In this document: positions 51,954 to 64,000 of the stretch, piece after piece
Position numbering within the stretch: the first letter of the stretch is position 1
Layout of the letters: each line of letters starts with the position of its first letter
NCBI RefSeq assembly: GCF_900218015.1
Contig: NZ_UFQQ01000022.1
Span: forward strand, 1-64,000
Direction: 5' to 3'
DNA from: Rhodopseudomonas pentothenatexigens
GTDB lineage: Bacteria > Pseudomonadota > Alphaproteobacteria > Rhizobiales > Xanthobacteraceae
Length of the DNA stretch: 64,000 nt
Translations under genes and position numbers: made by a program
The notes under the pieces: model-generated
What the model was told of the DNA's origin: nothing
What the model saw: the letters and a program-made list of their open reading frames with translations, nothing else
Database searches by the model: none

Positions 51954-52147
51954 TCCGCGGTCCTTCTTCCCGTCACGTGCTGTTGGTTCGTTGGATCCAT
52001 AACTAAGCGCAAGGCCACAAGAAGCGGTTAACGATTACCTCGTAGAACTACGAAACAAGCAGACAAATCCCGTCCCGGTAAGGTTGACTGGTTAGGTTAA
52101 GACCGCAATCGCGTTGACCGCGCGCGCGCGCCCGGTCAACTAACCGC

Positions 52148-52387
52148 ATGATCAAGGACGACGACTACGAACTCGACCGCTTCGGCAACCGCGTGCTGAT
52201 CGGGCTGACGGCGGAGGAAACCGCCGAATATTTCCGCTTGGAGGAAATCATCAGCAAGAGCATGCCGCTTCCGCAGGTCACGCGCGACGAGTGGTACCGG
52301 CCGGAGGACCGCCGCTGGCTCGAGCTCTACGAGAAACACGAATCCGCCCGCCGGCCGTTCCTCAAGAGCAGCAAGACCATGCATTGA
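52148..52387 (+). CDS. Small hypothetical acidic protein (79 aa)
   Basis: A hydrophilic protein with many charged residues (MIKDDDYELDRFGNRVLIGL; EWYRPEDRRWLELYEKHES) and no membrane segment. The amino-acid makeup is balanced and unlike frame shadows, which supports a real gene; no clear ribosome site is seen. I do not recognise the family. It stands between the divergent chemoreceptor gene and the convergent autotransporter gene. Confidence 0.6.
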   Translation: MIKDDDYELDRFGNRVLIGLTAEETAEYFRLEEIISKSMPLPQVTRDEWYRPEDRRWLELYEKHESARRPFLKSSKTMH

Positions 52388-52426
52388 GGGCGCCGGTCCG
52401 CACACTTACGGCGGACGGCTGCGCAG

Positions 52427-55400
52427 TCACCACGAATAGCGCAGCACGCCCTTGCCGGCGTAGCTGCGGGTGACGTCCGAGAACTCGCCCTCGAACGCGG
52501 CGGCGACAGAGAAGCCGTTCAGCCAGTTCAGTTCCGCCGACACCGTGGTCAGCGCCGCGTCCCGCGCCGGGCGGGCGCCGTTCACCACGAAGCTGGCGCC
52601 CGGCAGGGCCAGAAAGGTGGCCGCGACTGAACGAACGGCGTCGAATTCGTGCGCCCACGCCGCGCGCCCGCGCAGCGTCAGCAGCGCCCCGTCCAGCGCG
52701 AACGATTTGTCGCTGCGCAGGCCGAGTTCGCTGCGCGTCGAGGTCACGGTCTTGGCGTCGTAGCCGAGCGCGAACACGCTGCTGCCGCCCACCGCCCGCT
52801 CGGTATAGGCCGGCAGATCGAAGGCGGTGACCTGCGCGGCGGCGTAGGGCGTGAGGCCGACGCCGCCGAACGCCGGTGCAACCCAGCGATGGCCGGCTTC
52901 GACACGGGCCGAATAGCTATGCGCATTGAAGTCGGCGCGCAGCTGATCGAAGCCGCCGACGACGACAGTCCGTTCCGTGGTGATGTCCTGCCAGCCATAG
53001 GCCGCCGCGGCGGTGAGATAGCTGGCGCCGAAGCTGTGGCGGAGGAAGCCGCCGACCTGCATCAGATCGGAGCGCCCCGAGCCGAGCCCGTTCGCCAGGC
53101 CGAACTGGGTGGCGCCGCCCGCCATCGCGAAGCCGGCGACGGTCTGCGGCGACAGCCAGTAATCGGCGCCGGCGGCGATGCCGGCGAGCCGGCTGGTCGC
53201 GGTGGCGGAGCCGAGTGAAGCATTGCCGTCGGTGGTCTGCGCGCCGCCGAAGCCCGCGGCCCACATGTTCCAACGCGGCTCGAACGCCGCCGGCACCGGA
53301 GCCTTGGTCATCATCGCATTCGCATCGCGCACTGCGCCGGCACTCGTCGCGGCGAACGGCAGCAGCCGGCTGTCCGCACCCGGTGGCTCGCGGCCGTTGC
53401 CGAACGGATCGGTCAGCAGCCCCATGAACTGCGTCATGGCGTTGAAGGTCGATTGCTGCGCGCCGGTGGCGGTCTCGCCCGACACGGCGCTGAGCCCGTT
53501 CGCGTTCAGTGCGCCGAACACGATCGGAATGCTGCCGGTCCGCGTAAAGTAGTTCGTCAGCGCGTTGGCGACCGCAGTCTGGTTGGCGTTGAGGCCGCTG
53601 TTGACAACCGGCGGCGTCGGTCCGGGCGGCGTCGGCGGCGTGTAGTCGAGCACCAGATCGAGATAGGCGTTGTTGGCGTCGTAGCCGAGGCTCGATTTGA
53701 AGCCGGACGGCAGGTTGGTGTTGACCAGCGTCCCGAACGTCCCGGCGATGCCGCCGGTCGCGTTGACGATGGTGTATTGCCGCTCGACATAGCCGCCGGC
53801 GGCGAACGACGCATTCACCGTCGCGTCGCCGAGCGTCGCAATGCCGGTGACGTTGACGCGATCGGCGCTTGTCGGCGACACTTCGACCATGTAGCTCGAC
53901 GCCGCCGTCAGCGTCAGGTTGCCGCTGACATTCAGCGTGCCGATCGAATTGCCCGGCGCCAGCGCGCCGCCATTGATCAGCGTGGTGCCGACGGTGCCGT
54001 TGCCGCCGAGCGCCGCGCCGGCATTCACCGTCGTGAGCGACGACGACGCGATCGAGCCGTCGACGCTGAGCGTGCCGGCTTCGACCGTGGTGGCGCCGGT
54101 GTAGCTGCTGATGCCGGTCAGCGACAGATTGCCGGCGCCGCGCTTGATCAGTTGGCCGCCGCCGGAAATCGCGCCGCCGAAGCTGGTCGCGTCGGAGCGA
54201 TTGAAAGCCAGCGTCGCGCTGTTGCCGACATCGCCGACGATCGAACCCGACGTCCCGCCGTCGCCGATCTGCAGTGTGCCGCTGGAGACGGTCGTGCCCC
54301 CGGTGTACGTATTGGTCCCGGTCAACGTGAAAACGCCACTGCCGCTGCTGCCGCCGAAGCTGATCAGATTGCCTGCGCCCGAAATCGAACCACCAAACGT
54401 GTTGGCGTCGGAGCGGGCGAACTGCAGCGTTCCGTTGTTGACGACGTTGCCGACGATCCACCCCGTGGTGCCGCCGTTGCCGACCTGCAAGAAGCCGCTG
54501 CTGATGGTCGTGCCGCCGGTGTAGGTGTTGTCGCCGAACAGGATCAGCGCGTCGTTGCCGAGCTTGGTGACGCTGCCGGTGCCGGAGATCACGCCGCCGA
54601 AGCCCGCGGCATCCGAGCGGTTGAACACCAGCGACGCATTGTTGACGACGTTGCCGGTGATCGAGCCGGTGGTGCCGCCGGTGCCGATCTGCAGTGTGCC
54701 GGCCGAGATCGTGGTGCCGCCGGTGTAGGTGTTGGCGCCGGTCAGGGTCAGCGTACCCGCCGCGATCTTCTCGAGCGATCCACTCCCCGAGATCACACCG
54801 CCGAAGCCGATCGAATCGTGTCGATTGAACTGCAGTACGCCGTTGTTGACGACATCGCCCACGATCGAGCCGCTGGTGGCGCCGTTGCCGACCCGCAGCG
54901 TGCCGGCCGAGATCGTGGTGCCGCCGGTGTAGGTGTTGTTGCCGAGGAGCGCCAGGATGTCGCTGCCGTACTTGATCAGGTTGCCTGTCCCGGAGATCGC
55001 GCCGCCGAGGCTGGTGCCGTTGCTGCGGTTGACCGTCAGCGTCGCATTGTTGGTGATGTCGCCGGTGATCGAGCCGCTGATGCCGCCATTGCCGAGTTGC
55101 AGCGTTCCGCCCGAGATCGTGGTGCCGCCGGTGTAGAAATTGTCGCCGGTGAGCGTCAGCGTGCCGGTGCCGGTCTTGCCGAGCGCGAATTGTCCGCCGT
55201 TGTCGATCAGCGCGCCCGAGAATTCCGTGGAGGTGTTCAGGCTGCCGACCGTCAGAGTCTGCACCGGAACCCCGCTCACCACCGTTGCCGCAACGACCCC
55301 GCTGCCCGACAGCGACCCGATCGAGATCGCGCCCAAGCCGGAGCGCAGGCCGATCGTGCCGTTGTTGACGATTTCGGCCGTTCCTCCCGACGAGGATTGG

Positions 55401-55894
55401 CTGAACAGCAACGTGCCCCCGCTCAGAGTGGTGAAGGTCGCATTGCCTGCGGTGCTGGAGCCCACAAAATCGATCTGGCCGCCGGGACCGATCAGGAAGT
55501 TCTGGGCGTTGCCGGAGTTGTTGACGATGCCGGCGCCGCTCATGTTGAGCTGCCCGCCGGACGCCACCCCGATCGTATAAGTCGGTGCCCCGGCCTCGAA
55601 GGTGAAGCCGTCGGGGCTGCGCGTGGCCGTCAGCAACACCGAATTCGACGCGCCGTTATTGGTGAACACCGCAGTCGAACCGGTGTCGGGCACGGCCGCG
55701 GGACCGCTCCAGTTGGACGCCGCGTTGAAATCCTGACCGGCGCCGATCCAGACCTGCTGCGCTGAAGCGGGCATCGTGACCGCGACCAGCGCCGTGGAAG
55801 CCAGGAGCGCCGACAGCAGGGTCCGCCTTCGCGCAGCGCCCGCCCGATCCGTCGCCCCCGGCCTCAGTTCCTCACCAATTTCACCAACCTGCAC
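52427..55894 (-). CDS. Autotransporter (type Va) with beta-strand repeats
   Basis: A 1155-residue secreted/outer-membrane protein. The signal peptide (about residues 22-45, ASA/QQ) has an extended N-terminus. The passenger is Gly/Ser/Thr/Asn-rich beta-helix. From about residue 247 to 600 it carries five full and one partial copies of a 68-residue repeat (autotransporter-associated strand repeat, core NTYTGGTTIS.GTLQIG). A proline hinge (PPTPPGPTPP) and a C-terminal barrel of about 280 residues ending in the aromatic LRYSW signature follow. It has no cysteine-rich or protease motif; an adhesin role is likely but unproven. Start is GTG at 55894. Confidence 0.9.
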   Translation of the reverse strand: MQVGEIGEELRPGATDRAGAARRRTLLSALLASTALVAVTMPASAQQVWIGAGQDFNAASNWSGPAAVPDTGSTAVFTNNGASNSVLLTATRSPDGFTFEAGAPTYTIGVASGGQLNMSGAGIVNNSGNAQNFLIGPGGQIDFVGSSTAGNATFTTLSGGTLLFSQSSSGGTAEIVNNGTIGLRSGLGAISIGSLSGSGVVAATVVSGVPVQTLTVGSLNTSTEFSGALIDNGGQFALGKTGTGTLTLTGDNFYTGGTTISGGTLQLGNGGISGSITGDITNNATLTVNRSNGTSLGGAISGTGNLIKYGSDILALLGNNTYTGGTTISAGTLRVGNGATSGSIVGDVVNNGVLQFNRHDSIGFGGVISGSGSLEKIAAGTLTLTGANTYTGGTTISAGTLQIGTGGTTGSITGNVVNNASLVFNRSDAAGFGGVISGTGSVTKLGNDALILFGDNTYTGGTTISSGFLQVGNGGTTGWIVGNVVNNGTLQFARSDANTFGGSISGAGNLISFGGSSGSGVFTLTGTNTYTGGTTVSSGTLQIGDGGTSGSIVGDVGNSATLAFNRSDATSFGGAISGGGQLIKRGAGNLSLTGISSYTGATTVEAGTLSVDGSIASSSLTTVNAGAALGGNGTVGTTLINGGALAPGNSIGTLNVSGNLTLTAASSYMVEVSPTSADRVNVTGIATLGDATVNASFAAGGYVERQYTIVNATGGIAGTFGTLVNTNLPSGFKSSLGYDANNAYLDLVLDYTPPTPPGPTPPVVNSGLNANQTAVANALTNYFTRTGSIPIVFGALNANGLSAVSGETATGAQQSTFNAMTQFMGLLTDPFGNGREPPGADSRLLPFAATSAGAVRDANAMMTKAPVPAAFEPRWNMWAAGFGGAQTTDGNASLGSATATSRLAGIAAGADYWLSPQTVAGFAMAGGATQFGLANGLGSGRSDLMQVGGFLRHSFGASYLTAAAAYGWQDITTERTVVVGGFDQLRADFNAHSYSARVEAGHRWVAPAFGGVGLTPYAAAQVTAFDLPAYTERAVGGSSVFALGYDAKTVTSTRSELGLRSDKSFALDGALLTLRGRAAWAHEFDAVRSVAATFLALPGASFVVNGARPARDAALTTVSAELNWLNGFSVAAAFEGEFSDVTRSYAGKGVLRYSW
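54090..55150 (-). repeat. 204-bp tandem repeats within the autotransporter gene
   Basis: The conserved Tyr-Thr-Gly-Gly codons recur at about 55135, 54931, 54727, 54523, 54307 and 54103: three steps of exactly 204 bases, one of 216 (a four-codon insertion) and one of 204. Each copy encodes one strand repeat. Confidence 0.85.
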
Positions 55895-56070
55895 GCAACT
55901 GTCCCGCCACCTCTCAGGTCATTGGCGACCTGATTCAGGAATCAGCCTAGAGGTTCGGGATCGGGATGCAAATAGGAACCATTATTGGAACCCACATCGG
56001 CGATCAGGCTGGTCCCCACCGCCGACGCATGCTAGCGCTCCCGCAAACAACAGCGGGGAGACGGAACGCG

Positions 56071-56709
56071 ATGATCGAGGCGGTGATCTGGGATTTCGGC
56101 GGGGTACTCACGAGCTCGCCGTTCGAAGCGTTTGCACGGTTCGAGACCGAGCGCGGGCTGCCGATCGACATCATCCGCCGCACCAACGCCGCCAATCATT
56201 TCGAGAACGCCTGGGCCAAGTTCGAGCGCGCCGAGATCGATCTCGACACGTTCGACGCGCTGTTCGCCGAAGAATCCCGCGCGCTCGGCGCGGAAGTGCG
56301 CGGCCGGGACGTGCTGCCGCTGTTGTCCGGCACGCTGCGGCCGGAGATGGTCGCCGCTCTGAAGATCATCAAACAGAACCACAAGACCGGCTGCATCACC
56401 AACAACCTGCCGGCCAACGCGATCGGCTCGGCGTCGGGGCGGACGCTGTACGTCGCCGAGGTGATGGCGCTGTTCGACCATGTGATCGAATCCGCCAAGA
56501 TCGGCCTGCGCAAGCCGGACCCGAAGATCTACCGGATGATGACCGACGCGCTCGGCGTCGACCCGAAGGCCTGCGTGTATCTCGACGACCTCGGCGTCAA
56601 CCTCAAGCCGGCGCGTGAGATGGGGATGGCGACCATCAAGGTGACGAGCGGCGAGCAGGCGATCGCCGACCTCGAGGCCGCAACCGGGCTGAACCTCCGC
56701 AACGGCTGA
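56071..56709 (+). CDS. HAD-like hydrolase (ACAD10/YihX-like subgroup)
   Basis: A 212-residue HAD-superfamily protein. Motif I is WDFGGVLTSS: nucleophile Asp8, with the usual second Asp replaced by Gly, as in the sEH N-domain, YihX and ACAD10-type groups. Motif II is near CITNNLPAN, motif III lysine in GLRKPDPKIY and motif IV VYLDDLGVNLKPA. The sequence around ETERGLPIDIIRRTN recalls the HAD part fused to acyl-CoA dehydrogenases in ACAD10. The substrate is unknown. ATG at 56071 has a GGGAG site; the earlier frame overlaps the autotransporter's upstream region. Confidence 0.88.
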   Translation: MIEAVIWDFGGVLTSSPFEAFARFETERGLPIDIIRRTNAANHFENAWAKFERAEIDLDTFDALFAEESRALGAEVRGRDVLPLLSGTLRPEMVAALKIIKQNHKTGCITNNLPANAIGSASGRTLYVAEVMALFDHVIESAKIGLRKPDPKIYRMMTDALGVDPKACVYLDDLGVNLKPAREMGMATIKVTSGEQAIADLEAATGLNLRNG

Positions 56710-57068
56710 TTCTTGTTTCGCCCCAGGCCTCGGCACCCGTCATGGCCGGGCTCGTCCCGGCCATCCACGTCTTTGCGACGCGCGGAGGGAAAGGCGTTGA
56801 TGCCCGGGGCAACCCGGGGCATGACGACCTTGCGACGGCGACACGCCCCGAATCAGCGCGCTTCCAGCACGACTGGTTACCGATTTCTTAATACCCGTTC
56901 CGCGCCCGGGCTCACGGCCGCACTTTATTACTTCGCCCCGGGCGCCGCGCAGCTTTGATTGCGCGGCGAAAGACGTTAATGATTCGTCGAGCGCGCCGTT
57001 TGTGGTGAGTTGCCGGCGGCTCGAGTCGCCTTGCGTCCGACAGCCACGTAAGCCGAGCCCAGCACCCG
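56710..57068. other. Gap upstream of the radical SAM operon, with a repeat
   Basis: About 360 bases. The first part is a family C palindrome (56737-56827). The rest should hold the promoter of the radical SAM/SDR operon; it is AT-richer around 56875-56935, but no clear -35/-10 pair, riboswitch or frame is seen. Confidence 0.5.
56737..56827. repeat. Palindromic repeat, family C
   Basis: Second copy of the family at 46422-46512. Arms gtcatggccggg and gcccggggcatgac-like; 38 bases from 56738 are identical to the other copy. Confidence 0.85.
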
Positions 57069-58967
57069 ATGACCAAGCTCGCCAGCCCGCCCTCGCCCGT
57101 GGACCACGCGCTCATCCGCGCAGACTTCGCGCGCTTTGCCGCCGCGCGGTCGCTGAGCCGGCCGAGCGACCTGATCCTGATCCAGCCGGCGCTGGTGCCG
57201 GAGAAATTCTTCGACGTCACCACCGCACGCAACGGCGGCTACTACAACTTCCCGCCGGCCGGGCTGCTGTATCTCGCCGCCGCGGCGCGCGCCGCCGATC
57301 CGGAGATCGGCATCCGCCTGATCGACATCAATCACCAGTTGCTCAAGGCCGCGCACAGCGACGGCTTCGATTACGACCTGTGGCGCGATCTGGTGCGCGA
57401 GGCGATCGGAGCCTGCGCCCATCCGCATGTCGCCGTATCGTACATGTTCGGCACCACCAAGCCGTGTTTCGTCGAGGTGATCGAGCTGATCCGCAGCGAA
57501 TTTCCGCAGGTGCCGATCCTGTCGGGCGGGGTGCAGGCGACGTTCGACTATCAGGAAATCCTTCAAAGCGGGCTGTGCGACATCGTCTCGCGCCACGAGG
57601 GCGAGCGGCAGTTGATGAGCTATCTGGCGGCGCTGGCGGGCGACGCCGACGCCGTGCCGGAGGGCATGGCGTTCGCCGATGGCGGCCGGATCGTCGAACT
57701 CGGCAAGCCGCACAGCGACAATCCGGTGAACTGGGACATCCTGCCGTTCTACGACGCGATCAATGTCGAGGAGTATCATCGCTACGGCGGACTCGGCGCG
57801 TTCTCGCGCTATGTCGGCGAGGACAAGCCCTACGCCACCGTGCTCGCCACCCGCGGCTGCCGGGCGCGCTGCACCTTCTGCACGGTGCGCAACTTCAACG
57901 GCTTCGGGCTGCGCCAGCGCACGGTGCAGGACGTGATCGACGAGGTGAAGCACCTCGTGACGCATCACGGCATCCGTTACATCGACTGGCTCGACGACGA
58001 TCTGCTGTGGGACCGGGAGCGGACGCTGGCGCTGTTCAAGGGCCTCGCCGAACAGGTGCCTGGATTGGAATGGACCGCCAGCAACGGCGTGATCGCAGTG
58101 GCGATCGACGACGAGATCATGCAGGCGATGGTCGCGTCCGGGCTGCGCGCCTTCAAGATCGGGGTCGAGTCCGGCAACGACGCGATGCTGAAGACGATCA
58201 AGAAGCCGACCACCAAACCGAAATTGCGCGAGCGCGCCAGGCTGTTCGCGAAATACCCGGAGGTGTTCGTCTCGACCAATTTCATCATCGGATTTCCCGA
58301 CGAGACCTTCGGCCAGATGATGGACAGCTACGATCTCGCGGTCGAGCTCGCCAGCGACTGGGCGAGCTTCTACATCTGCCAGCCGCTGAAGGGCACCGAG
58401 ATGTTCTCGGCTTTCCAGTCGCTCGGCGACGCGCGCACCAAAGAAGAGCGCTACGACAAGACCATCAATCCCGGCCGCTCCGCCGAGCGCGGCGAATTCG
58501 GCTATCGCTTCGCCGCCGACCGCGAGCGGCTGCGCACCGGCTGGGAGGTGTTCGACATCCCGCACCAGGCCGTGCCCGATCTCGAGCAGCAGAAGGAGAT
58601 CTGGTTCAGCTTCAACCTGGTCGCCAACTTCCTCGACAACCCGAACTTCCGCCCCGGCGGCAATGTCGCCAAGCTGGCGCGCTGGATCGAGGCGATCCAC
58701 GATGGTTATCCCTACGACGCCTCGATGGCGGCGGCGCTGGCGCACGCTTACTGGCTGCTCGGCGATCAGGTGCGCCACGCTCACCACCGCGCCGATTTCC
58801 TGCGGCTGACCGAGACTTCGCCGTATTGGCAGACCCGCGTGGCGCAATTCCCCGAACTGCTGTCGCTGGCGCATGTCGACGAAGCGCCGGCCTGGTTCGC
58901 CGGTTCGCCGCCGCTGGCTCTGACCAGGCCGCTGGCGTTCGCCCGGCCCGGACAGGTGCCGGCGTGA
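57069..58967 (+). CDS. B12-binding-type radical SAM enzyme, unknown substrate
   Basis: A 632-residue protein. The N-terminal part (about 35-185) has the fold of the B12-binding region of this enzyme class (DLILIQPALVPEKF, NFPPAGLLYLAA, PILSGGVQATFDY), but a DxHxxG cobalamin motif is not evident. The radical SAM domain has the iron-sulfur cysteines C264, C268 and C271 (CRARCTFC), followed by GIRYIDWLDDDLLW and the GVESGND motif. The C-terminal 150 residues are of unknown fold. It is the first of three genes with 4-base overlaps; its product is probably processed by the two reductases downstream. Class members include BchE and HpnP; no detail ties it to either. Confidence 0.82.
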   Translation: MTKLASPPSPVDHALIRADFARFAAARSLSRPSDLILIQPALVPEKFFDVTTARNGGYYNFPPAGLLYLAAAARAADPEIGIRLIDINHQLLKAAHSDGFDYDLWRDLVREAIGACAHPHVAVSYMFGTTKPCFVEVIELIRSEFPQVPILSGGVQATFDYQEILQSGLCDIVSRHEGERQLMSYLAALAGDADAVPEGMAFADGGRIVELGKPHSDNPVNWDILPFYDAINVEEYHRYGGLGAFSRYVGEDKPYATVLATRGCRARCTFCTVRNFNGFGLRQRTVQDVIDEVKHLVTHHGIRYIDWLDDDLLWDRERTLALFKGLAEQVPGLEWTASNGVIAVAIDDEIMQAMVASGLRAFKIGVESGNDAMLKTIKKPTTKPKLRERARLFAKYPEVFVSTNFIIGFPDETFGQMMDSYDLAVELASDWASFYICQPLKGTEMFSAFQSLGDARTKEERYDKTINPGRSAERGEFGYRFAADRERLRTGWEVFDIPHQAVPDLEQQKEIWFSFNLVANFLDNPNFRPGGNVAKLARWIEAIHDGYPYDASMAAALAHAYWLLGDQVRHAHHRADFLRLTETSPYWQTRVAQFPELLSLAHVDEAPAWFAGSPPLALTRPLAFARPGQVPA

Positions 58968-59683
58968 CGCTCGCCGGCAAGGCCGCGCTGGTCACCGGCG
59001 GCAGCAAGGGCATCGGCTTTGCGATCGCGCGGGCGCTGGCGCAGGCCGGCTGCGACGTGATGATCTGCGCCCGCGACGACAGCGAGATCGCCCAGGCTCT
59101 GCCGGCGCTGCGCGACGGCGTCGCCGGCCGGGTTCACGGCGTGGCGTGTGACGTTCGCGACGAGTCGGAGGTGCGCCAGCTGATCGACCACGCCGTCACG
59201 GCGTTCGACGGCCTCGACATTCTGGTCAACAACGCCGGCATCGGCCTGCTCGGCCCGGTCGAGAGCTTCGCCCCCTCGAATTGGCGCGCGACGATCGATA
59301 CCAATCTCACCGGCGCGTTCTATTGCTGCCACTACGCGATCCCGGCGCTGAAGGCGCGCGGCGGCGGCGCCATCGTCAACATCGGCAGCCGTTCCAGCGT
59401 CAACGCCTATGGCGGCGGCGCGGCGTATTGCGCCTCGAAATTCGGCCTGCTCGGCCTGTCGGAATCGCTGCTGCAGGAGCTGCATCCGTACGGCATCCGC
59501 GTCAGTTGCGTGATGCCCGGCCGGGTCGCCACCGACTTCGCCGACGAACCGCCGCAGGACTGGCACCTGTCCGCCGACGATGTCGCGCAGGCGGTGATCG
59601 ACGTGCTGTCGTTCGCGCCGCGGGCGCTGGCGAGCCGGATCGAGCTGCGGCCGGCGCGGCCGCCATCGCCGGCGCCGCGATGA
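58964..59683 (+). CDS. Short-chain dehydrogenase/reductase (first of two)
   Basis: A 239-residue classical SDR. Cofactor loop TGGSKGIG (11-18), NNAG (about 89-92) and the catalytic triad Ser (NIGSRSS), Tyr-x-x-x-Lys (YCASK) are present. The C-terminus is short and ends ARPPSPAPR. GTG at 58964 overlaps the radical SAM stop (GTGA), and its own end overlaps the next gene (ATGA), so all three are translated together. Substrate unknown; cofactor preference not clear from the loop. Confidence 0.9.
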   Translation: MTLAGKAALVTGGSKGIGFAIARALAQAGCDVMICARDDSEIAQALPALRDGVAGRVHGVACDVRDESEVRQLIDHAVTAFDGLDILVNNAGIGLLGPVESFAPSNWRATIDTNLTGAFYCCHYAIPALKARGGGAIVNIGSRSSVNAYGGGAAYCASKFGLLGLSESLLQELHPYGIRVSCVMPGRVATDFADEPPQDWHLSADDVAQAVIDVLSFAPRALASRIELRPARPPSPAPR

Positions 59684-60501
59684 GCGATAACGCCGCCCTG
59701 CCCCTGTACGGCCGCCGCGCGATGGTCACCGGCGCGGCGCAGGGCATCGGCCTGGCGATCGCGCGCACGCTGGCGATGCAGGGCGCTCAGGTCGTATTGG
59801 TCAACCTCAGGCACGATGCCGGCGAAGCCGCGGCGCGTGCGATCAACGACGCGGGCGGCGATGCGCACTTCATCGTCGGGGACATGAGCGACGAAGCGGC
59901 GATCGCCGCGACCGTGGCGGCGAGCGTCGCCGCGATCGGCGGGCTCGACATCCTGGTCAACAACGCCGCGCCGTCGCAGCGGGCGCGGCCGCCGTTCGCC
60001 GAGCAGAGCGCCGCGTTGTGGGACGCGACCGAAGCGGTGATGCTGCGCGGCTACATGCTCACCGCGCAGGCGGCGCTGCCGCATCTGGCGCAAGCGCGCG
60101 GCGCGATCGTCAACCTGTCGTCGGTGCTGGCGCGCAGCGTCGCGCACGAGACCGCCGCCTATCACGTCGCCAAGGCCGGGGTCGAACAGCTCACCCGCTA
60201 TCTCGGCTGGCACCTCGGCCGCAGCGGCGTGCGGGTCAATGCGGTGGCGCCCGGTGTCGTCGATCGCGATGCGGGCGCGAGGCTGAGCGACGATCCGGTT
60301 AATCGCGCGGTGATCGAAGCGGCGGTGCCGCTCGGCCGCGCCGCCACCGCCGCCGAGATCGCCGAGGTGGTGGCGTTCCTGTGCTCACCGGCGGCCGGCT
60401 ATATCACCGGCCAGACGCTGGTGATCGACGGCGGTCTGTCGCTGTGCGAGCCGTTCGGCGTCGCCCGCAGCGCGGTGCGCGCCGCCACCGGGGAGAGGTG
60501 A
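59680..60501 (+). CDS. Short-chain dehydrogenase/reductase (second of two)
   Basis: A 273-residue SDR. Cofactor loop TGAAQGIG (17-24), NNAAP in place of the usual NNAG, serine in NLSSVLA and catalytic YHVAK. The C-terminal GQTLVIDGGLS is standard FabG-like. It differs enough from its neighbour that the pair does not look like a recent duplication. It ends the operon, 18 bases from the convergent acr3 gene; no terminator is obvious. Confidence 0.9.
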   Translation: MSDNAALPLYGRRAMVTGAAQGIGLAIARTLAMQGAQVVLVNLRHDAGEAAARAINDAGGDAHFIVGDMSDEAAIAATVAASVAAIGGLDILVNNAAPSQRARPPFAEQSAALWDATEAVMLRGYMLTAQAALPHLAQARGAIVNLSSVLARSVAHETAAYHVAKAGVEQLTRYLGWHLGRSGVRVNAVAPGVVDRDAGARLSDDPVNRAVIEAAVPLGRAATAAEIAEVVAFLCSPAAGYITGQTLVIDGGLSLCEPFGVARSAVRAATGER

Positions 60502-60518
60502 CGCGCCCCAGTGCGCGC

Positions 60519-61571
60519 TCAGCCCGGCGTCCGCGCCACCGGCGCCTCGGCGTCGGCCTCGTACCAGCGCTTGGAGCGGTTGACGATCGCCACCACCGTC
60601 AGCATCACCGGCACCTCGATCAGCACGCCGACCACGGTGGCGAGCGCGGCGCCGGATTCGAAGCCGAACAGGCTGATCGCCGCGGCGACCGCGAGTTCGA
60701 AGAAGTTGCTGGCGCCGATCAGCGCCGACGGGCCGGCGACGCAGTGCTGCTCGCCGGAGAGCCGGTTGAGCAGGTACGCCAGCCCGGCGTTGAAATACAC
60801 CTGGATCAGGATCGGCACCGCGAGCAGCGCGATCACCAGCGGCTGCCGGATGATCTGCTCGCCCTGGAAGCCGAACAGCAGCACCAGCGTCGCCAGCAGC
60901 GCCACCAGCGACAACGGCTGGAACACGCCGAGCAGCCGCTGCAAGCTCGCCTCGCCGCCCGACGCCAGCGCCCAGCGCCGCAGGCCCTGCGCGATGATCA
61001 CCGGCACCACGATGTACAGCACCACCGACAGCACCAGCGTGTCCCACGGCACGGTGATAGCCGACAGGCCGAGCAGGAGACCGACGATCGGCGCGAACGC
61101 GAACACCATGATGGTGTCGTTGAGCGCGACCTGGCTCAGGGTGAAATGCGGTTCGCCCTTGGTCAGGTTCGACCACACGAACACCATCGCGGTGCACGGC
61201 GCCGCCGCCAGGATGATCAGGCCGGCGATGTAGGAGTTGATCTGGTCCGCCGGCAGATACGATCTGAACAGGTAGCCGACGAACAGCCACGCCAGCGCCG
61301 CCATCGAGAACGGCTTCACCGCCCAGTTGATGAACAGCGTCACGCCGATGCCGCGCCAGTGCTCGCGCACCTGGCCCAAGGCGGCGAAGTCGATCCGCAC
61401 CAGCATCGGAATGATCATCAGCCAGATCAGCGCCGCCACCGGCAGATTGACCTTGGCGATCTCCGCCGCCCCGATCACCTGAAACGCCCCCGGCATCAGA
61501 TGCCCGAGCGCGATGCCGACGACGATACACAGCGCGACCCACAGGGTGAGGTAGCGTTCGAAGGTGGACAT
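60519..61571 (-). CDS. acr3: Arsenite efflux transporter, Acr3 family
   Basis: A 350-residue inner membrane exporter with about ten segments. The conserved AAAPCTAMVFVWSNL with the functional cysteine and the GEPHFTLSQVALND region identify the ACR3 group of the BASS superfamily. ATG at 61571 was chosen because the hydrophobic first helix follows closely. It is the last gene of the arsenic locus and exports arsenite made by the reductases. A family A repeat separates it from arsC. Confidence 0.93.
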   Translation of the reverse strand: MSTFERYLTLWVALCIVVGIALGHLMPGAFQVIGAAEIAKVNLPVAALIWLMIIPMLVRIDFAALGQVREHWRGIGVTLFINWAVKPFSMAALAWLFVGYLFRSYLPADQINSYIAGLIILAAAPCTAMVFVWSNLTKGEPHFTLSQVALNDTIMVFAFAPIVGLLLGLSAITVPWDTLVLSVVLYIVVPVIIAQGLRRWALASGGEASLQRLLGVFQPLSLVALLATLVLLFGFQGEQIIRQPLVIALLAVPILIQVYFNAGLAYLLNRLSGEQHCVAGPSALIGASNFFELAVAAAISLFGFESGAALATVVGVLIEVPVMLTVVAIVNRSKRWYEADAEAPVARTPG

Positions 61572-61647
61572 GGAATGATCTCTAACCCGTTCTCTGGACT
61601 CTTTTGTCGAATGATCTGTTGGCCGCTCCGCCCACCAAACTAACAAA

Positions 61648-61770
61648 CGTCATCCCCGCGTAGGCGGGGATCCAGTATCCCAGAACGCCCGACTTCAACT
61701 ACTCACATCGCCGCGCGAACTCAGCGGCGCTCTGGGATACTGGGTCGCCCGGACAAGCCGGGCGATGACG
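61648..61770. repeat. Family A palindromic repeat between arsC and acr3
   Basis: Arms catccccgcgtaggcgggg and gcccggacaagccgggc flank ccagtatcccag and ctgggatactgg. The loop between them is about 45 bases. Same family as 13381-13622 and 33413-33514. Confidence 0.85.
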
Positions 61771-61818
61771 GTGGGTGGAGATGGAAGCGCCCTGCTTCCT
61801 CTCCACCTCGAACGAGCA

Positions 61819-62247
61819 CTACACCGTCGCCACGCGCCGGCCGCTGGCGTCGATCACCGGCTCGCCGTCTTCCTTGAAAAACTCGCCGCGTTGCGGCGGC
61901 AGCAGGTCGAGCACGTCCTCCGAGGGCCGGCACAGCCGCACGCCCTTCGGCGTCACCACCAGCGGACGGTTGATCAGGATCGGATGCGCCATCATCGCGT
62001 CCAGCAGAGCGTCGTCACTCAGCGTCGGATCGTCGAGCTTCAGCTCGGCATAGGGCGTGCCTTTTTCGCGCAGCAATTGCCGCGCCGTCAGCCCGGCGCG
62101 GGCGATCAGCTGCTCGAGCAGCGACCGGCTCGGCGGGCACTTCAGATACTCGATCACGTGCGGCTCGATCCCGGCGTTGCGGATCAAGCCGAGGGTGTTG
62201 CGCGAGGTGCCGCAGGCGGGATTGTGATAGATGACGACGTCCATCAT
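61819..62247 (-). CDS. arsC: Arsenate reductase, glutaredoxin-dependent type
   Basis: A 142-residue ArsC/Spx-fold enzyme. Catalytic cysteine 12 in YHNPACGTSRNTL, then the KGTPYAELKLDDPTL and the LINRPLVVTPKGVRLCRPSE motif (arginine residues that bind the oxyanion). ATG at 62247 overlaps the stop of the other reductase by 4 bases (ATGA). It converts arsenate to arsenite using glutathione and glutaredoxin. Confidence 0.94.
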   Translation of the reverse strand: MMDVVIYHNPACGTSRNTLGLIRNAGIEPHVIEYLKCPPSRSLLEQLIARAGLTARQLLREKGTPYAELKLDDPTLSDDALLDAMMAHPILINRPLVVTPKGVRLCRPSEDVLDLLPPQRGEFFKEDGEPVIDASGRRVATV

Positions 62248-62771
62248 GCCACCTTCGGCCGGCCGAAGCTGACGCCGGCGAGCAGGCCGATCTCCTGCAG
62301 CTTGGTGCCGAGCGCGACGCCGTCGAGCATCTTGATCGGCAGCGCGTTGAAGGCGTCGATCCGGTTCTTCAGGAACCGGAACGCCTGGACGAAGGCGCGT
62401 TCCTTGTCGAGATCGCTGCCCTCGACCGCGGCGGGATCGTCGATCCCCCAATGCGCGGTCATCGGCTGGCCGGGCCACACCGGACAGGCCTCGCCGGCGG
62501 CGTTGTCGCAGACGGTGAACACGAAATCCATCACCGGGGCGTCGGCGGCGGCGAACTCCTGCCAGCTCTTGGAGCGCAGCCCCTCGGTCGGATAGTTGCC
62601 GTCCGCCAGCACTTTCAGCGCGAACGGATTGACCACGCCTTTCGGCTGGCTGCCGGCCGAGAACGCATGGAAACGGCCGGCGCCGTCCTTGCGCAGAATG
62701 CTCTCGGCCATGATCGAGCGGGCGGTGTTGCCGGTGCAGAGAAACAGCACGTTGAAGATGCGATCAGACAT
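62244..62771 (-). CDS. Arsenate reductase, LMW-phosphatase type
   Basis: A 175-residue enzyme of the low-molecular-weight tyrosine phosphatase fold. P-loop LCTGNTARSIMAE with nucleophile C12, a CDNA-type cysteine region (FTVCDNAAGEACPVWPG) and a HWGIDDPA loop with the general-acid aspartate. This fold normally works with thioredoxin. It overlaps arsR by 8 bases and the glutaredoxin-type arsC by 4. Some members of this family are phosphatases, but the context supports arsenate. Confidence 0.88.
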   Translation of the reverse strand: MSDRIFNVLFLCTGNTARSIMAESILRKDGAGRFHAFSAGSQPKGVVNPFALKVLADGNYPTEGLRSKSWQEFAAADAPVMDFVFTVCDNAAGEACPVWPGQPMTAHWGIDDPAAVEGSDLDKERAFVQAFRFLKNRIDAFNALPIKMLDGVALGTKLQEIGLLAGVSFGRPKVA

Positions 62772-63120
62772 CGACGGTCTCTTTCGAAGGACAACAGGGG
62801 GTCAGGTCGGCAATCAGCGGAGCACAGATGTCGCTGCGGCCGTCGCAGCAATCCATCAGCATGAACAACATCAGGGCTCGGAACCGCGCCAGGTCGGCGC
62901 GGTACACGATCGAGCGGCTGTGCCGCTCCGAGGTCACCAGGCCGGCGCGGCTCAGCACGCCGAGATGCACCGACATGGTGTTGGCCGGCACTCCCACCGC
63001 TTTGGCGAGGTCGCCGGCGGCGACGCCGTCCGGCTCGCGCCGGACCAGCAGCCGGAACACCGCGAGGCGGGTTTCCTGCGACAGGGCCGACAGAGCATCG
63101 AGGGCTGCTGTTGATTCCAT
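62764..63120 (-). CDS. arsR: ArsR-family arsenic-responsive repressor
   Basis: A 118-residue winged-helix repressor. HTH around residues 35-70 (AGDLAKAVGVPANTMSVHLG). The classical CxCxxC/CVC site in the recognition helix is absent; instead a C-terminal set of cysteines, C91, C92 and C99 (DCCDGRSDIC), plus C109-C110, could bind arsenite. It presumably represses the arsenic genes through a site overlapping its start (63115-63138). It heads the arsR-arsC-arsC part of the locus. Confidence 0.92.
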   Translation of the reverse strand: MESTAALDALSALSQETRLAVFRLLVRREPDGVAAGDLAKAVGVPANTMSVHLGVLSRAGLVTSERHSRSIVYRADLARFRALMLFMLMDCCDGRSDICAPLIADLTPCCPSKETVDV

Positions 63121-63138
63121 ATTTCAAGAATAATGGAA
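63115..63138. promoter_or_regulatory. Possible ArsR operator
   Basis: Inverted repeat TTCCAT (63115-63120) and ATGGAA (63133-63138) with a 12-base AT-rich centre. It covers the arsR start codon and the bases just upstream, a typical place for autorepression. Confidence 0.45.
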
Positions 63139-63174
63139 TTATAAGGACCAGTCAAGTCCTCTCGCGGAGGCCCG

Positions 63175-63411
63175 TCAGCTCGACAGCCAGGCCGCGATGC
63201 TCTCGGCCTTCGGAAGCCCGCCGGCATGCACCACCTTGCCGTCCACCACCACGCCCGGCGTCGAGGCGATGCCGAATTTGGCGATCTCAGCGTAGTCGGT
63301 GACCTTCTCCAGCCGGATCGGCACGCCGAGACGGTCCGCCTCGCCCTGCACCAGAGCGGCGGTTTCGATGCAACGCTTGCAGCCCGAACCCAGCACCTTG
63401 ACGTCCTTCAT
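63175..63411 (-). CDS. Small thioredoxin-fold protein (CXXC)
   Basis: A 78-residue protein of the small redox/thioredoxin_3 type (TM0996-like). Active-site GSGCKRC (C11, C14) and the cis-proline region IASTPGVVVDGKVV. It lies 12 bases downstream of a permease gene and 55 bases upstream of arsR. In arsenic loci such proteins go with ArsP/DUF318 permeases; a role in thiol chemistry of arsenic or its organic forms is inference. Confidence 0.88.
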   Translation of the reverse strand: MKDVKVLGSGCKRCIETAALVQGEADRLGVPIRLEKVTDYAEIAKFGIASTPGVVVDGKVVHAGGLPKAESIAAWLSS

Positions 63412-63422
63412 GACCTTCTCCT

Positions 63423-64000
63423 TCAGCCGAACAGGAAATTGAACAGATAGCCGACCGCCAGGATGCCGAGGCCGACGACGGCGACGAACACGGCGATCAG
63501 CCGGACGTTGAGCACCTTGCGCAGGATGATCAGTTCCGGCGCCGACAGCGCGGTGACGCTCATCATGAACGCCAGCGTGGTGCCGAGCGCGGCGCCCTTG
63601 CCGAGCAGCGCCTCGACGACCGGGACGATCCCGGCGGCGTTGGAGTACATCGGAATGCCGATCGCCACCGCGGCCGGCACCGACCACCACGCCTCGCGTC
63701 CCATGATCCCGGCGAGCAGCCCCTGCGGCACCCAGCCGTGAATGCCGGCGCCGATCGCGATGCCGGCAATGATCCACGGCCACACCCGCCCGACGATGTC
63801 GCGCACCGCCTCGACCCCGGCGTCGATCCGGTCCGACACGCTGAGGCGTTCGGCTGCGAGCGGCGCCGCGTCGGTGCGCAGCGCCCGCACCCAATCCTCC
63901 AGCCAGCCTTCGAGATGCAGCCGGCCGATCACCATGCCGGCGACGATCGCGACCGCGAGGCCGAACAGCAAATACAGCAGCGCCACTTTCCAGCCGAGCA
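63423..64000 (-). CDS. Permease, ArsP/DUF318-like, 5' end outside window
   Basis: The visible 190 or so residues contain about five hydrophobic segments. The segments IPMYSNAAGIVPVVEALLGKG and SVTALSAPELIILRKVL match the C-terminal half of the two-fold permease family that includes ArsP. The frame stays open to the window edge, so the true start is upstream; the GTG at 63986 is internal. With the neighbouring CXXC protein it likely belongs to the arsenic locus, possibly exporting organoarsenicals. Confidence 0.85.
   Translation of the reverse strand, partial: LGWKVALLYLLFGLAVAIVAGMVIGRLHLEGWLEDWVRALRTDAAPLAAERLSVSDRIDAGVEAVRDIVGRVWPWIIAGIAIGAGIHGWVPQGLLAGIMGREAWWSVPAAVAIGIPMYSNAAGIVPVVEALLGKGAALGTTLAFMMSVTALSAPELIILRKVLNVRLIAVFVAVVGLGILAVGYLFNFLFG

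Follow-up and report, generated by a model that had tools for sequence, protein, structure and literature searches.

We analysed a 64,000-nucleotide stretch of Rhodopseudomonas pentothenatexigens DNA (contig NZ_UFQQ01000022.1, positions 1 to 64,000; hereafter the window) and found in it a three-gene operon encoding a B12-binding-domain radical S-adenosylmethionine (SAM) enzyme, here called rSAM, and two short-chain dehydrogenases/reductases (SDRs), SDR1 and SDR2 (Table 1). The operon is portable and conserved, and the family to which rSAM belongs is often found in surface-sugar loci together with thiamine diphosphate (ThDP) carboligases. We propose, with a probability of about 0.5, that these genes form an optional module belonging to a pathway for a carbon-branched (C-branched) surface sugar, in which a radical step would be followed by SDR reduction. 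A role in a glycan pathway is likely; that this pathway would be one for a C-branched sugar is slightly favoured; and chemistry like that of AprD4, rather than methylation or ring change, is a tentative suggestion.

The operon corresponds closely to the description given in the original prediction, which was made from the DNA alone. The three genes overlap by four bases at each of two junctions (GTGA and ATGA), and both Pfam and motif searches agreed with the first product being a B12-type radical SAM enzyme without DxHxxG and with the other two being short-chain reductases. The rSAM protein passed the Pfam B12-binding (45.3 bits; cut-off 32.1) and Radical_SAM (61.9 bits; cut-off 29.5) models and has one CxxxCxxC motif, a combination that places it in the B12-binding-domain radical SAM superfamily (class B type). 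SDR1 and SDR2 both matched adh_short/adh_short_C2 and retain TGxxxGxG and YxxxK. As the genes form one operon, they probably serve one pathway, as had been predicted.

Within the taxonomic family rSAM was present in four of 391 genomes, all of them in the window's genus, where four of 16 genomes carry it (the window's own genome, G000, and G003, G004, and G010), and SDR1 and SDR2 accompanied it in identical gene order in all three other carriers. A HAD-family hydrolase gene, which lies 360 bases upstream of the operon in the same orientation and matches TIGR02247 (224.5 bits; cut-off 125.4), was present in all 16. When we inspected the flanks in eight of the 12 operon-less genomes of the genus by blastn of window positions 52000-64000, four (G015, G006, G012, and G001) had a clean empty site, at which the flank on the HAD side and the one downstream either adjoin or are separated by about 30 bases; G002 and G005 had 1.6-1.9 kb of other DNA at the operon site, and G008 and G013 had no joined downstream flank there. 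A presence/absence cassette therefore spans about 56.7 to 60.55 kb. The HAD gene is a chance neighbour, because of its presence in 16 genomes as opposed to four for the operon and because of the empty sites. Foreign origin as judged by composition was rejected: the G+C content at third codon positions was 89-91% for the three genes and 91.5% for the HAD gene, and this similarity means that base composition does not mark the cassette. A plasmid search for rSAM gave a single weak match, 29% identical over half of the protein.

To which family rSAM belongs was addressed with NCBIfam, of which 25 models were matched at E 0.001 and none at its cut-off. Among the best scores, with the cut-offs in parentheses, were 117 bits for the Sden_1168 P-methyltransferase (575), 112.8 for BchE, TIGR02026 (481), 96.9 for HpnJ, TIGR03471 (578), 81 for ApyD (750), 80 for the MgmA type (360), 67.2 for PhpK (600), 43.8 for AprD4, NF033070 (500), and 43.7 for the hopanoid C-3 methylase HpnR, TIGR04367 (650). 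The original prediction had raised the question of whether rSAM falls inside a family of known function such as BchE or HpnP. By these cut-offs it lies outside BchE, HpnJ, and HpnR; no model named HpnP was among the 25 families matched, and no direct comparison with HpnP was made. All 52 aligned family members (window included) matched the Sden_1168 and PhpK models at E 1e-10, the lowest E-value for any listed model being 1.2e-40 (Sden_1168), with scores against cut-offs available for the window rSAM alone. CxxxCxxC occurs in 51 of these 52 proteins and DxHxxG in only two, so that the absence of DxHxxG is a normal trait of the family. We concluded that rSAM, as judged from its sequence, is a member of a radical SAM family that has not been named. 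In structural comparison (VIA-align) the top solved match of rSAM was AprD4 (Z 24.6, 18% identity); rSAM may bind cobalamin, its modelled fold resembling those of cobalamin-using enzymes as well as that of AprD4.

Relatives of rSAM were collected by a contig scan, from which the best 80 of 102 were kept, representing 79 distinct loci (L044-L122); 12 of these, which do not reach 10 kb, were excluded from ratios, leaving 67. Fifty-four of the 79 loci were offered for alignment, L048, L078, L107, and L116 were dropped because of unknown residues or stops, and the tree contained 52 family proteins and two long-branched, hand-chosen outgroups from the window's own genome, one of them termed BchE by eye alone. 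A clade with SH-like approximate likelihood-ratio (SH-aLRT) support of 100 united the window and G010 (L036) proteins with those of L044 (Rhodospirillaceae), L049 (Tistlia), L045 (Elusimicrobia), L046 (Omnitrophota), L047 (Microcoleaceae), L051 (Lindowbacteria), and L050 (Prochlorococcus), and ranges over alphaproteobacteria, cyanobacteria, Elusimicrobia, Omnitrophota, and Lindowbacteria. The rSAM of L048 (Elusimicrobia), which is outside the tree because of its unknown residues, is 56% identical to that of the window. The SDR pair lies directly beside rSAM in three of the eight closest loci: in L044 (SDR1 53% and SDR2 48% identity), in L049 (53% and 49%), and in L050, where rSAM is followed by two diverged, overlapping SDRs. 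Among the SDRs compared, the first of these was closest to SDR1 (~1e-9) and the second to SDR2 (~2e-10), indicating that gene order and identity have been kept between the cyanobacterium and the window. L046 has a relative of SDR2 (35-37% identity).

Several arrangements of the family's genes were noted in passing. L061, L062, and L110 have a row of radical SAM, SDR, and a second radical SAM gene of the same family, and a second member also lies nearby in L064, L069, L089, L094, and L098; eight contigs from a viral collection (L123-L130) encode members of the rSAM family (27-38% identical).

Visual inspection, together with comparison to the island described below, showed that the eight clade loci contain sugar-nucleotide dehydratases or epimerases, glycosyltransferases, and methyltransferases, with aminotransferases in several. 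In L044 the order is ThDP enzyme, SDR1, SDR2, rSAM, almost without gaps; the top PDB match of this ThDP enzyme was 8rph (354 bits), and the next was an acetolactate synthase (284 bits). PMC12188165 identifies 8rph as JanthE, a YerE-like enzyme joining aldehyde units to ketones. The earlier observation that no known pathway gene lies beside the operon holds in the window, where by eye no branching-type ThDP carboligase is present among the open reading frames (ORFs) of positions 52000-64000, but not in the relatives, which have sugar-nucleotide and ThDP carboligase genes next to them.

The known ketone-accepting ThDP enzymes belong to three superfamilies, the decarboxylases (YerE-like), the alpha-keto-acid dehydrogenase-type E1 pairs, and the transketolases, and all three include enzymes linked to C-branched sugars, according to PMC12247030; AviB1/AviB2 and Pau11/Pau12 are E1-like (PMC4425429), and YerE is described in PMC4753412. 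Representatives of each type (from L044, L045, and L050) served as queries against the family loci, with, as controls, 20 DegT-centred 20-kb loci, all alphaproteobacterial and hand-picked for long contigs; score thresholds for the ThDP counts, and for the island-gene and SDR counts below, were chosen after the scores were seen. A ThDP carboligase scoring at least 90 bits was found in 47 of the 67 family loci of at least 10 kb and in three of the 20 controls (p 1.6e-5); at 150 bits the counts were 30 and 3 (p 0.019), and at 200 bits 28 and 1 (p 0.0022). Without the three query loci the gene was present in 44 of 64 family loci (p 2.7e-5), and in the alphaproteobacterial family loci alone, query loci again excluded, in 18 of 24 (p 8.7e-5). 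The median distance from rSAM to the ThDP gene was 3.8 kb in the 49 of 79 loci having one. When ThDP types were labelled by hand and placed on the rSAM tree, E1 and YerE each gave 5 changes and transketolase 7, relative to 8.5 for shuffled labels, with 0, 2, and 51 of 500 shuffles, respectively, being as low; E1 and YerE were thus clustered, and transketolase less so. In this labelling the window and L036 were counted as E1 from an island elsewhere in their genomes, weak E1 was counted as "none/weak," and L094 and L111 were counted as YerE though also holding E1 (and L111 also a transketolase). Rule-based labels for the 23 single-type loci gave 7 type changes where the minimum possible is 2, calculated without a shuffled baseline. 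As a separate observation, transketolase genes split into separate N and C halves were present in L045 (4913-6666), L052, L054, L055, and L063, the last four belonging to a neighbouring clade on the rSAM tree.

The island of the window's genome lies on contig C42 between two flagellin genes. It encodes a SIS-domain protein, two NAD-dependent epimerase/dehydratase-like proteins, a small methyltransferase, E1-like alpha and beta proteins, a zinc alcohol dehydrogenase (Zn-ADH), an HldE-like kinase/nucleotidyltransferase, a sugar nucleotidyltransferase, an SDR, a ThDP enzyme, a TPR/GT41-type glycosyltransferase, and one further protein without a Pfam match at 1e-5, for which "FkbM" is a by-eye label only. 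The ThDP enzyme is 44-45% identical to that of L044, itself YerE-like by its top PDB match, and the genome that carries the operon contains, by predicted activity, branching-type ThDP genes together with sugar-nucleotide genes. Relatives of the L044 ThDP enzyme (44-46%) adjoin relatives of the 277-amino acid L044 SDR in 10 of the 16 genomes of the genus, including all four operon carriers, a co-occurrence that is consistent with a link and is not proof of one. Relatives of several of these genes were in excess in the clade loci over the other family loci of at least 10 kb: Zn-ADH, 6 of 8 versus 3 of 59 (p 2e-5); GMD-like, 6 of 8 versus 2 of 59 (p 7e-6); E1-beta, 5 of 8 versus 5 of 59 (p 0.0012); the 277-amino acid SDR, 3 of 8 versus 0 of 59 (p 0.0012); the island methyltransferase, 7 of 8 versus 21 of 59 (p 0.008); and the Pfam-less protein, 2 of 8 versus 0 of 59 (p 0.013). 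The same comparison gave no significant excess for E1-alpha, the kinase, SIS, the first epimerase, the nucleotidyltransferase, the ThDP enzyme, or the glycosyltransferase. The flagellins bounding the island are 892 and 887 amino acids long, with Flagellin_N and Flagellin_C over cut-off and DUF1522 domains (L147 6118-8793 and L148 4425-7085; G000:C42:218117-239087), and the TPR/GT41-type glycosyltransferase adjoins the second of them.

Table 1. Positions of the operon, its flanking hydrolase gene, and the cassette in the window
Feature	Position	Strand	Remarks
rSAM, B12-binding-domain radical SAM enzyme, 632 aa	57069..58967	+	CxxxCxxC at residue 264; no named family
SDR1, short-chain dehydrogenase/reductase, 239 aa	58964..59683	+	GTG start over rSAM stop (GTGA)
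SDR2, short-chain dehydrogenase/reductase, 273 aa	59680..60501	+	ATG start over SDR1 stop (ATGA)
HAD-family hydrolase (TIGR02247), flanking gene, outside the system	56071..56709	+	in 16/16 genus genomes vs operon in 4
Presence/absence cassette, approximate extent	56701..60550	.	between HAD gene and gene at 60519-61646(-); blastn vs operon-less flanks

Other ORFs near the cassette were characterised by eye. A 1155-amino acid ORF at 52427-55894 (-) looks like an autotransporter with passenger repeats, and in blastn this region aligned with its own counterpart as offset copies, with an identity of about 65-75%. Directly downstream of the cassette, the ORFs at 60519-63986 resemble an arsenic cluster, with an ACR3-type transporter, arsenate reductases, an ArsR-type regulator, and a permease.

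In the mechanism that we propose, rSAM would abstract a hydrogen from a (nucleotide-linked) sugar or from the branch of that sugar to give a carbonyl-bearing deoxy or rearranged intermediate, and SDR1 and SDR2 would then reduce or oxidise neighbouring carbonyls, much as the radical diol dehydratase AprD4 works with the reductase AprD3. The carbon branch would be supplied by a ThDP carboligase, and in the window's genome the island genes (E1-like alpha and beta, the YerE-like ThDP enzyme, and others) may work together with the operon. As the island lies between two flagellin genes, flagellin is one likely acceptor. R. palustris is reported to make a C-branched sugar, "ropiose" (PMC12247030). 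Bradyrhizose, a Bradyrhizobium sugar considered as the product from kinship and by literature search only, was rejected, as there was no rSAM orthologue outside the genus in the 391 genomes.

A number of observations weigh against this proposal. The lead of AprD4 among structural matches is only 1.0, MgmA having a Z of 23.6 and CysS, TsrM, and OxsB 21.7-22.2; sequence comparison puts MgmA above AprD4, and the NCBIfam AprD4 model scored far below its cut-off. The ThDP enzyme of R. palustris, RhopE, produced heterologously, has yet to show ketone acceptance (PMC12247030), and the branched sugar of that species was named with RPEPS-30, which PMC9133744 terms an extracellular polysaccharide, so that the acceptor may not be flagellin, which is only one candidate. 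ThDP genes were no more frequent in the window's clade (7 of 8 loci) than in the rest of the family (40 of 59; p 0.42), from which we concluded that the ThDP link belongs to the whole family; L048, an 11-kb contig, has none. The operon itself has no adjoining sugar gene, and by hand calculation the chance of its four carriers all falling among the 10 island genomes is 210/1820 or 0.12, which is not significant. The island is identical in genes and order in carriers G003 and G010 and in non-carrier G012, showing that the operon is not essential to the island and looks like an optional addition. In the family as a whole relative to the 20 controls, Zn-ADH (9 of 67), GMD-like (8 of 67), first epimerase (10 of 67), and SIS (9 of 67) relatives were not significantly enriched (p 0.11-0.19). 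The linkage of the SDRs across homologues, which the original prediction had suggested surveying, held for the pair in two alphaproteobacteria and, in diverged form, in Prochlorococcus, but an SDR within 1 kb on the same strand was present in only 14 of the 79 family loci, compared to 0 of the 20 controls (p 0.066). This goes part of the way towards the refuting outcome named in the original prediction, homologues that mostly lack the SDRs.

The strongest competitor, which we consider unlikely though worth keeping in view, is that rSAM would be a cobalamin-dependent C-methyltransferase acting on the sugar or its branch, with the SDRs opening and closing a needed ketone or adjusting stereochemistry. 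The Pfam B12-binding domain passes its cut-off, B12 methyltransferases are among the top NCBIfam scores (Sden_1168, 117 bits; PhpK, 67), and MgmA, CysS, TsrM, and TokK are among the top structural matches; however, every named methyltransferase model listed scored far below its cut-off, a separate class I methyltransferase related to that of the island is present in 28 of the 67 family loci versus 0 of the 20 controls, and plain methylation would presumably need no two reductases. Somewhat less probable still is that the module acts on a surface sugar in a way unrelated to the carbon branch, the ThDP genes being fellow travellers of complex glycan loci. This would account for the 20 of 67 family loci of at least 10 kb without a ThDP gene at the threshold and for the complete island in G012 without the operon, but not readily for the ThDP frequencies in the family and alphaproteobacterial loci (47 of 67 and 18 of 24, versus 3 of 20 controls), for the clustering of hand-labelled ThDP types on the rSAM tree, or for the ThDP-SDR-SDR-rSAM order in L044.

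The other two alternatives can be largely set aside. A lipid or tetrapyrrole enzyme of the BchE, HpnJ, or HpnP kind, in line with other radical SAM proteins in these bacteria, is very improbable: BchE and HpnJ are among the best NCBIfam scores, but both fall far under their cut-offs, and by eye the eight clade loci contain no hopanoid or pigment gene. A self-contained pathway whose fourth step would be performed by the upstream HAD protein, as the original prediction had suggested, fits the proximity and orientation of the HAD gene, but with that gene in 16 genomes and the operon in four, and with the HAD gene separated from the downstream gene by an empty site in four of the eight operon-less genomes inspected, we regard it as having almost no chance of being correct, unless the HAD protein also serves some other function.

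A broader idea, which we offer as speculative, is that this large, unnamed, multi-phylum radical SAM family would act as a radical partner dedicated to the ThDP enzymes that branch sugars. It would carry out, on sugars already branched at carbon or about to be, a step not yet described (deoxygenation, rearrangement, or ring change), with rSAM-SDR-SDR as the minimal portable module altering flagellin or another surface sugar in Rhodopseudomonas. As judged by titles and the beginnings of abstracts, we found no radical SAM enzyme of C-branched or flagellin sugar biosynthesis in the open-licence literature. According to PMC12247030, the product of most predicted YerE-like C-branching enzymes is a sugar not yet known. 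A family keeping company with all three sugar-branching ThDP types supplies specific loci that can be searched for new sugars and radical chemistry, and the Rhodopseudomonas genomes that have the flagellin-flanked island in common and differ in the operon constitute a natural on/off experiment. The relatives of the operon suggest that unusual surface sugars are built with the help of a chemical step not yet studied, and we know of few radical SAM enzymes in sugar biosynthesis outside antibiotics.

To our knowledge, the cobalamin-dependent radical SAM enzymes MgmA, TsrM, OxsB, CysS, and TokK act on other substrates, which do not include a sugar nucleotide, and are without SDR partners. BchE and HpnJ are among the nearest curated models to rSAM by score, and HpnJ acts on the sugar part of a hopanoid (PMC12583986), but rSAM falls under both cut-offs by hundreds of bits. 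AprD4 and AprD3, the radical SAM 1,2-diol dehydratase and NADPH reductase of the apramycin pathway, resemble the operon in the overall fold predicted for rSAM and in having reductase partner genes, here two SDRs. They differ in the low score (43.8 bits against a 500-bit family cut-off) and 18% identity of rSAM to AprD4, in the number of reductases (two SDRs versus one), in the rSAM N-terminal domain, which passes the B12-binding Pfam model, and in setting, the relatives of rSAM lying in surface-glycan loci and AprD4 in an antibiotic cluster. The C-branched sugar pathways (YerE, AviB1/B2, Pau11/12, and transketolase type) differ in that no radical SAM enzyme is mentioned for them in the available portions of PMC12247030, PMC4425429, and PMC4753412; in those same portions they share with the rSAM loci the three carboligase types, keto-sugar chemistry, and reductases, and two of these carboligase types, an E1 alpha/beta pair and a YerE-like ThDP enzyme, are encoded in the window's own genome.

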